From Asanoa hainanensis (GTDB lineage: Bacteria; Actinomycetota; Actinomycetes; Mycobacteriales; Micromonosporaceae): DNA of 64,000 nucleotides. The stretch is taken from positions 682,001 through 746,000 of the forward strand of contig NZ_FZPH01000002.1 of NCBI RefSeq assembly GCF_900188485.1. Reading direction: 5' to 3'. This document shows, one piece after another, positions 60,202 to 61,909 of this stretch. The translations under genes and the position numbers were made by a program. The stretch's first letter is position 1; every line of letters begins with the position of its first letter. The notes below the pieces were generated by a model. That model made no database searches, was not told the DNA's origin, and was given only the letters and a program-made list of their open reading frames with translations.

Positions 60202-60264
60202 TGCTCTGCATCCATATCCGCATCACCTGTCGGGCTGGGTGATGCGTGTATGGAAGCAGAGCAA
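60201..60264. repeat. Long imperfect inverted repeat
   Basis: Two 27-bp arms (60201-60227 and 60238-60264) match at 24 of 27 positions with a 10-bp spacer. The outer ends read TTGCTCTGC and GCAGAGCAA. It is longer than needed for termination and starts right where the LPMO terminator ends. Confidence 0.85.
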
Positions 60265-60289
60265 AGCCCACCGGCAAGGGAGGTCCGGG

Positions 60290-60844
60290 GTGACGGGACG
60301 ACGCGCGTTTCTCGCGGCGGTGCTGCTGTTGGTGGCGGGCTGTGCCGGGCCCGCGCCCGCCGCGCCGGCCCCACCACCACCGTCCTACAACGACACCGAC
60401 GTGATGTTCCTGCAGATGATGCTGGCCCACCACGAGCCGGCCGCGAAGCTGTTGACGCTGGGGGAGAAGCAGGCCACCCGGCCGGAGGTCAGGGCGGCCG
60501 CGACCGAGCTCTCGGCCGCGCAGGCGGCCGAGACGACCACCATCCGGGACCGGCTCGCGGGCTGGGACGAGCCGCTGGTCTCCACCGCACACGCCGGCCT
60601 GCACGAGGCACACGGCGGCCTGCCCCTGCTCGACGACGCCGAGCTGCTGCGGTTGGCCGGACTGACGGGGGCCGAGTTCGACAGCACCTTCCTCACGATG
60701 CTGATCGGTCACCAGCACGGGGCGGTGGAGCTGGCCCGCATGGAGACCACGTCGGGCATCGACCCGCCGACGCGCGAGCTCGCGGCCCGCACCGACGAGA
60801 CCGTCCGCGCCCAGATCCAGAAACTGCTCCGGATGGTCGGTTAG
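60290..60844 (+). CDS. DUF305 lipoprotein
   Basis: A 184-aa lipoprotein with lipobox LLLVAGC. The DUF305 domain has two related halves: MFLQMMLAHHEPAAKLLTLG and FLTMLIGHQHGAVELARMET, each with a paired His suited for metal (probably copper) binding. GTG 60290 is chosen because GGGAGG lies 7 nt upstream; earlier in-frame starts run into the long inverted repeat. Its TAG stop (60842-60844) lies inside the left terminal repeat of the following MITE-like element. Confidence 0.88.
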   Translation: MTGRRAFLAAVLLLVAGCAGPAPAAPAPPPPSYNDTDVMFLQMMLAHHEPAAKLLTLGEKQATRPEVRAAATELSAAQAAETTTIRDRLAGWDEPLVSTAHAGLHEAHGGLPLLDDAELLRLAGLTGAEFDSTFLTMLIGHQHGAVELARMETTSGIDPPTRELAARTDETVRAQIQKLLRMVG

Positions 60845-61007
60845 GCCCTGTTTCGTGTCTGCGGCCGGGCTGCGGCGGGCCCAGGCGCCGCCTGGCCGCA
60901 CGGCACCTTTGCCCGGATACAACACCGGTATCCGGGCAAAGCCGCCGCACACCCAGACGACCCCTGGACTCCGCCTCGCCTCGACCCCAGACACGAAACA
61001 GGGCCTA
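60842..61007. mobile_element. MITE-like element with perfect 20-bp terminal inverted repeats
   Basis: TAGGCCCTGTTTCGTGTCTG at 60842-60861 is exactly inverted at 60988-61007. The 166-bp element has no transposase and a central 14-bp hairpin (60907-60920 with 60928-60941) around an AACACCG loop. The outer TA on each side may be a 2-bp target duplication, as made by IS630/Tc1 or some IS5-type transposases. The terminal TAG on each strand serves as stop codon of the two convergent flanking genes. Confidence 0.8.
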
Positions 61008-61769
61008 GAAAACGACCCGGGCGGCGGAGAGAGGGCTGTCCTTCGGGAGTTCGACGCCGTCGCGGCCGGAGAGGTGCAGCATCATCGACAGGGTGTCGGC
61101 GGTGACCGACTCGACCGGTGCTCCGCGGCCGAGCTCCCACACGCCACCGGCCGGGCCGGTCAGCTCCAGCCGCAGCGGCGGGCGCTGCCAGCCCTGGTCC
61201 AGCTCGCGGACCACCTGGCCGACGATCTCGTGGTCATGGTCGTCCACGTCGAACACCCCGCCGGTCGCCCGGGCCAGCTCCATGCGGTGCATCCAGGTGT
61301 CGCGCGGCAGGATCACGTCGGCCAGGTAGCCGAGGTTCGACTCCTGCAGGGGTGACTCCGGGAAGAACCGCAGGGTCGAGATCCGCCGGAACAGCCCTGG
61401 CATCAGCCGGATCCGCCGGAGCGCCACCGGGCCCAGCCGCTGCAGGCGGCCGAACAGCTCGGCCGGCGGCAGCCCACCCAGCTCGTCGATCTGCACCTGG
61501 TTGTGCCCGTCGAGGGCGATCTTGTCGGGATAGCGCTGCCGCGCGACACGCAGCCGGTGCAGCAGCACCGTCGGCTTGGCGAGCTCCTCGTACTGCCCGC
61601 AGACGTGGGCCACGACGTCCTTGACCGTCCAGTCCGGGCAGTCGGTGGGCCTGGCCCAGTCGGCGTCGTCGAGGGACGCCAGCGCGGCGCCGAAGGCGCG
61701 CAGCTCCGCCGCGGCCACCTCCGCCGCCCGGCGCCGGCTCAGCGCTTGCGGCCGGGAGTCGACAACCAT
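61005..61769 (-). CDS. Maleylpyruvate isomerase/DinB-like helical protein
   Basis: A 254-aa protein of the mycothiol-dependent MDMPI N-terminal type: AALASLDDADWARPTDCPDWTV, KDVVAHVCGQYEELA with a metal-type His, and LPRDTWMHRMELARATGG with another. The last 100 residues form the C-terminal domain. ATG 61769 is chosen since GAGAGG lies about 8 nt upstream. Its stop codon (minus strand TAG, 61007-61005) is provided by the right terminal repeat of the neighbouring MITE-like element. Confidence 0.88.
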   Translation of the reverse strand: MVVDSRPQALSRRRAAEVAAAELRAFGAALASLDDADWARPTDCPDWTVKDVVAHVCGQYEELAKPTVLLHRLRVARQRYPDKIALDGHNQVQIDELGGLPPAELFGRLQRLGPVALRRIRLMPGLFRRISTLRFFPESPLQESNLGYLADVILPRDTWMHRMELARATGGVFDVDDHDHEIVGQVVRELDQGWQRPPLRLELTGPAGGVWELGRGAPVESVTADTLSMMLHLSGRDGVELPKDSPLSAARVVF

Positions 61770-61909
61770 CGCGATCACCTCTCTCTTGGAAAGCTAAGCG
61801 CGACACGCCAGGCATTCGTGCCGAATCCGGCCAACTTCCGTGATTCGCCTTTTATGCGAAGTTTCTCTGCATACAGTCACCCCTGGGAGTGTTGTGAAGG
61901 GAGAAACCA

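Follow-up and report, generated by a model that had tools for sequence, protein, structure and literature searches.

The terminal repeats of MITEs are usually conserved, and the interior between them is free to change. Among the described systems that come closest to the element reported here, RUP of Streptococcus pneumoniae is a MITE of IS630-Spn1, 107 bp long, with a TA-containing target and with ends like those of the mobilising IS (PMC2229807), and the elements of the IS427 group that are tabulated for Paracoccus mostly have 2-bp repeats (PMC3281130). QMITE2 of Coxiella burnetii occupies the 3' end of a gene and in one strain is reported to lengthen the product by 33 in-frame residues (PMC5896051). 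A precedent of another kind is template switching, in which the arms of imperfect palindromes are made identical by copying, multi-base changes included (PMC8794818, PMC8604942); the template-switch papers considered here treat RNA genes, a yeast coding sequence and test sites in E. coli.

The element that concerns us lies between two convergent genes of the soil actinomycete Asanoa hainanensis, in a stretch of 64,000 nucleotides that was analysed as a whole and is called the window below. It resembles RUP in having a TA-containing target and, probably, ends like those of its mobilising IS, and differs in that this IS would be of the IS5 rather than the IS630 type and in its siting at gene stops, which the portion of PMC2229807 drawn on here does not describe for RUP. 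Like QMITE2, it is a MITE that lies where a gene ends and bears on the position of the protein's stop (PMC5896051), but here both proteins end as they do without the element. The likeness is closest to the IS5-family (IS427-like) MITEs, since the element is short and non-coding, has inverted repeats that are partly common with IS5 elements of the genus, and is flanked by a TA duplication, whose 2 bp agree with the published members of the IS427 group (PMC3281130). It departs from the IS5-family MITEs in that its ends often abut stop codons and in that the usual pattern of conserved repeats and free interior is reversed in a subfamily of 17 Asanoa copies. As explained below, an IS5-type MITE very probably transposed, to judge from the sequences, into the TA of a CTAG in which the TAG stops of the two genes had overlapped.

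The element and the genes that flank it

The features of the locus, in window coordinates, are as follows.

60242..60844, plus strand: gene for a DUF305 protein (PF03713, E 6.4e-29; frame as scanned, start provisional)
60842..61007, no strand: MITE with its TA target duplications (from the sequence, the multiple copies and the empty orthologous site in 5/5 congeners)
60842..60844, plus strand: TAG stop of the DUF305 gene, TA from the target and G from the element
60842..60861, plus strand: left end, TA duplication and 18-bp terminal inverted repeat, perfect complement of 60988-61007
60907..60941, no strand: central hairpin with a 14-bp stem and a 7-nt loop (from the fold and the alignment of copies)
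60988..61007, minus strand: right end, 18-bp terminal inverted repeat and TA duplication (from the inverted-repeat match)
61005..61007, minus strand: TAG stop of the MDMPI_N gene, read 61007-61005, TA from the target and G from the element
61005..61778, minus strand: gene for an MDMPI_N-domain protein, convergent with the first (PF11716, E 2.4e-15)

An earlier note on this DNA described 20-bp terminal inverted repeats, a central 14-bp hairpin and no transposase, and so the sequence reads: the inverted ends of the 166-bp stretch (60842-60861 and 60988-61007) are perfect, matching at 20/20 positions with the TA included, the arms of the central stem lie at 60907-60920 and 60928-60941, and a transposase gene cannot fit in 166 bp. 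Each 20-bp end consists of TA and an 18-bp inverted repeat. The outer TA on each side is the target duplication and the element proper is the 162 bp at 60844-61005, with 18-bp repeats; the window site taken by itself would be compatible also with a 4-bp duplication of CTAG instead of TA.

The whole element folds into a single long hairpin, with a computed energy of -111.6 kcal/mol as RNA (z -11.7) and of -62.1 as DNA (z -9.3), values that were equalled by 0/200 shuffles in each case. The most conserved stretch of the MITE family is GGATACAACACCGGTATCC at 60915-60933, the inner part of the central hairpin, and alignment columns 71-90 have a mean pairwise difference of 0.000 among 16 Asanoa copies. 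This stretch is invariant in the 16 copies of the subfamily Asanoa_A and recurs in 14/44 sampled genera, and it seems to be kept by something beyond the ends needed for transposition. A search of Rfam over 60700-61150 gave nothing above the gathering score; two microRNA families matched weakly, one at 25.3 bits (gathering score 100) and one at 22.7 bits (gathering score 98).

The junction without the element

The comparison of this junction with genomes that lack the element, which the earlier note had proposed, was carried out with five congeners, and all five are empty. In each of them the DUF305 and MDMPI_N genes (the latter with orthologues at 75-93% identity in 5/5) meet directly, and the forward and the reverse TAG overlap within one CTAG. 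The congeners' DUF305 proteins end in RMVG, RMVS, RMIA, RMVA or KMVA and their MDMPI proteins all in ARVVF, and the presence of the element makes no difference to the position at which either protein ends. Because the five empty sites already hold both stops in CTAG, the element did not create the gene ends. That the TAG stops of both convergent genes overlap the terminal repeats is correct; the further statement that the element supplies these stop codons is right for the final G of the two TAGs and wrong for the TA, which is duplicated target.

Other copies and their empty sites

The genome of A. hainanensis contains seven places, the window copy among them, with at least 90% identity over at least 150 of the 166 bases, and 58 matches at E values up to 10, many of them weaker and several of them one palindrome found on both strands. 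The 20-base end occurs at 21 places in this genome with at most three mismatches, whereas the reversed control occurs at none, and the element is therefore not a product of chance. Further copies were found in relatives, with a match to the element in 21/61 genomes searched (its own genome counted) and an exact 19-base core in 24/150 sampled genomes of the Micromonosporaceae, representing 14/44 genera (control 0). The core is very unevenly distributed in one genus (g4), with 27 matches in genome G161, 11 in G170 and none in the other 14 sampled genomes or species. Neither the plasmid records searched for the element nor the IMG/VR viral contigs searched for the exact 19-base core gave a match, and thus no vector was identified.

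The dispersed copies carry TA on both sides. When the flanks of the six other copies in the genome were joined and compared with the genus, at least two of the five congeners matched across the join in each case, and some congeners matched one flank only. The empty site of copy L004 is clean and consists, in genome G002, of a CTAG common to two convergent stops, just as at the window junction; that of L015, in G003, is also clean, with a TAG stop followed by GAGG and ATG, and the right-hand TA beside this copy now reads TT. At L003, L005, L006 and L007 the alignment is ragged at the join. The L007 site is occupied in G003 as well (copy L112), with flanks 94-96% identical, and is the single occupied site common to two species that the flank comparisons gave. 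In G003 the site of L004 holds a short stretch of another kind, which ends in GGGCCTA and may be a relic. A second set of flank comparisons gave one match between G065 and G061 (L270/L316), one-sided and at 73%. Paired repeats also occur in G065, each pair spanning 44 bp in all and separated by some 10 bp (contig C1, 5793802-5793845, 5920682-5920725 and 5526082-5526125), and these pairs could be either minimal elements or deletion relics.

Location of the copies at gene stops

The relation of the family to stop codons was examined at 142 loci picked from the best-scoring matches, so that well-preserved copies are over-represented; 124 of them have two recognisable ends. Genes reading toward the element were recognised by their codon usage, with the window as training set, and a stop was counted where such a gene terminates no more than 1 nt from the TA of the element. 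By this measure 76/124 copies have a gene stop at one end at least and 23/124 at both, and 48/124 have none at either end; with zero tolerance the first two counts become 66/124 and 20. Nearby TA dinucleotides in the same flanks have a stop at one side at least in 25/1252 cases and at both sides in 1 (Fisher p 4e-69 for at least one end and 3e-24 for both ends), and those in a YTAR context in 15/85 and 1 (p 2e-10 and 4e-5). The YTAR set is the fairer null, because the set of all TAs takes in sites inside genes, from which insertions are purged, and TAs that are incapable of being stops; the enrichment itself mixes target preference with the removal of insertions inside genes. All 86 exact stops (86/86) are TAG, a result that is partly a matter of construction, since the script sets the boundary at TAGG-like letters, and copies whose outermost base is A, for example L005 and L006, have TAA as the stop. 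On these sequence comparisons, a position at gene stops is a frequent habit of the MITE family.

A candidate partner among the IS5 elements

All six genomes of the genus (6/6) contain genes with DUF4096 (IS5), and among the IS5 elements there are several, roughly 0.9-1.0 kb long, whose ends are of the same build as those of the MITE. The transposase of L175 matches NF033580 (transpos_IS5_3) at 259.6 bits, the frame of L173 is split into halves that pass the same model at 132.3 and 135.5 bits (cut-off 110 throughout), and L167 was assigned to the IS5-type transposases through PF13340. The best agreement of ends within a genome is that of MITEs L122/L125 with L167, where 20/21 bases are common at both ends (E 1.7e-4); L003 shares 16/17 bases with one end of L175 in their common genome, that of A. 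hainanensis, at a weak E of 0.04, and L115 shares 12/12 bases with L173 of the same genome at a weak E of 0.16. For the window copy the best match found is L175, with agreement at 14 of the first 15 bases, and an IS carrying its full 18-bp repeat was not found among the IS5 elements of the genus that were examined. G065 has 41 forward and 39 reverse places for its type of end, together with 28 IS5_3 matches, and among the places listed at no more than two mismatches no end pairs at IS-like spacing were seen. We infer that the partner transposase is of this IS5 kind, and the placement of an IS5-type MITE in the common stop site is well supported. The proposal of the earlier note that the sequence is MITE-like has thus been borne out by the multiple copies, the empty sites in congeners and the IS5-type ends in the genus.

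Two associations of IS5-type elements with MITE copies were noticed in passing. At positions 1 to about 360 of contig C23 of the A. hainanensis genome (L333, L014), an IS5-type element with the ends TAGACCGCGTCTCATTTGGGG directly abuts a MITE copy at its TTAG end, which suggests that the TA of the MITE itself served as target; elements with these ends occur at several contig ends. In the same genome the IS5_3 element L175 and the MITE L008 both have on their right flank the same 17 bases, GTACTGCAACGGCACTT, which perhaps are the same target in a repeated gene.

Proposed course of the insertion

The copies, the empty sites and the stop codons with and without the element are direct observations, and they support the following scheme. 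A non-autonomous IS5-type element of 162 bp would insert into the TA of CTAG, and the TA would be duplicated; since G is the first base of either terminal repeat, each TA together with this G would then rebuild TAG, whichever way the sequence is read. With both TAGs rebuilt, the two genes would be moved apart and the end of neither protein changed. A transposase like the IS5_3 proteins of the genus probably acts in trans. The preference of the family for stops may come from the scarcity of TA within genes of high GC content and from the fact that insertion into the TA of a stop codon would cost nothing.

Three other accounts of the locus were weighed against this insertion into a common stop site. 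The suggestion of the earlier note that insertion replaced the original 3' ends, leaving the element to supply new stop codons, might be drawn from the overlap of both TAGs with the terminal repeats; it is refuted by the identical stop codon positions in all five congeners without the element, and we regard it as extremely improbable. No greater credence can be given to a conserved bidirectional transcription terminator in place of a mobile element, an account to which the very strong hairpin between convergent genes and the gene stops at both ends of 23/124 copies would lend themselves, as would one short terminator-like match where 0.1 was expected. That match, on the minus strand at 61018-61001, spans the right end and not the central stem, the dispersed copies have their flanking TA, and the same hairpin, which according to the earlier note would point to a mere conserved terminator if relatives had it at the same place, is absent from the orthologous junction in 5/5 congeners; a terminator conserved at this locus is thereby excluded, and any two-way termination would be a present-day side effect of the element. 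A MITE of the Tc1/IS630 type, comparable to the pneumococcal RUP, would also target TA, and the TA duplication, the CTAG-type target and the precedent of RUP itself (PMC2229807) speak for it. This origin is nevertheless most unlikely, since DDE_3 (IS630) is found in 1/6 genomes of the genus and is absent from that of A. hainanensis, and since the IS630 ends in that one genome, CTAGTGTCCTGAGTCG, do not match those of the MITE, whereas IS5-type ends do.

Mirrored and copy-specific terminal repeats

In the Asanoa subfamilies the terminal repeats differ from copy to copy and yet mirror each other within a copy. Over repeat columns 3-20 of 64 copies, the two arms of a copy agree at 97.0% of positions, as against 47.4% for an arm and the opposite arm of another copy; for the 17-copy Asanoa subfamily the corresponding values are 99.7% and 72.4%. 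In the interior of that subfamily the arms within a copy agree at 8-59%, and the same arm agrees across copies at 82-93%. The own arms of 15 aligned Asanoa copies differ at 1/270 positions, and when the arms were dealt at random 10,000 times the mean was 48 differences and the minimum 25. The pattern is clearest between nearest neighbours: copies L002 and L006 differ at 1/118 interior positions and at 6/18 repeat positions, and these six are identical for the two arms.

Counts of two-arm and one-arm changes, in cells that represent sequences and not events, are 53:1 in Asanoa_A, 26:4 in Asanoa_B, 12:22 in G035, 17:15 in G065 and 17:45 in G061, where the boundaries set by the script may blur the last two; G065 has 4 more cells, and G061 13 more, that have changed differently on the two arms. 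The correlation of left and right repeats over pairs of copies is 0.98 in Asanoa_A, 0.89 in Asanoa_B, 0.71 in G035, -0.11 in G065 and 0.28 in G061. The young burst of copies in G065 has nearly one repeat throughout, with a one-arm variant in several copies. Symmetry of the repeats as a rule for the whole family was rejected on account of the common one-arm changes in G035, G065 and G061, three subfamilies of another genus; it is thus the Asanoa subfamilies that are characterised by exactly mirrored repeats.

The insertion common to two species (L007/L112) gives a view of changes within a single insertion: 1/18 repeat positions has changed, in both arms. In the interior of L007 a run of three bases has gone from CAC to TGG and is now the exact complement of its own opposite arm, whereas a further three differences within the element lack a mirrored counterpart. 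Eleven pairs of Asanoa_A copies with interiors no more than 2% apart show a difference of 23% in the left and in the right repeat; such pairs differ in their repeats by 8-9% in Asanoa_B, 9-11% in G035, 6-14% in G061 and 0-3% in G065. The near-identical interiors and divergent repeats of Asanoa_A would mean either that the interior is strongly constrained or that the repeats are rewritten around transposition, a reading based on 11 non-independent pairs and one common insertion.

The likeliest origin of the mirrored repeats would be a copying process in which one arm serves as the template for its partner, in the hairpin or at joined ends. In the circle junction of joined ends, both repeats form a single short palindrome. 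A more specific version, that the repeats are rewritten together and in mirror image in the course of transposition, with one end or the circle junction serving as template for the other, is offered tentatively and is on balance rather unlikely. The block change from CAC to TGG in L007, if templated by the opposite arm, is as template switching predicts (PMC8794818); the difference from the template-switch systems is that here the ends of a mobile element would be concerned and that its interior mostly stays mismatched. Selection for an RNA or DNA stem through compensatory substitutions, for example of a hairpin that acts as a terminator, is possible but similarly doubtful as the source of the mirrored ends. 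It would account for the outer helix of the 15 Asanoa copies, where 11/20 pairs show two-sided changes and pairing holds in 97.7% of cells, and for a covariation over the outer and central helices of 0.202, which 0/500 shuffles reach and slid versions do not approach (at most 0.037). It is harder to reconcile with the restriction of perfect pairing to the outer 20 bp or so, with the mismatches that persist in the interior and the less well paired central stem (88.1%), and with the great rarity of half-changed cells in Asanoa_A.

Implications for transposon spread in GC-rich genomes

The insertion of an IS5-type MITE into a common stop site suggests how a transposon could spread cheaply through a genome that is dense and rich in GC, namely by targeting TA and by beginning with G: a TAG or TAA stop that is hit is restored as a stop, and this can hold for two genes together. 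The mirrored, copy-specific ends constitute a natural data set on the upkeep of inverted-repeat identity and on the question whether MITEs are able to switch transposase partners. If the repeats are indeed rewritten together with transposition, a MITE could change the ends by which a transposase recognises it without loss of their symmetry, perhaps following whichever IS5 happens to be active.
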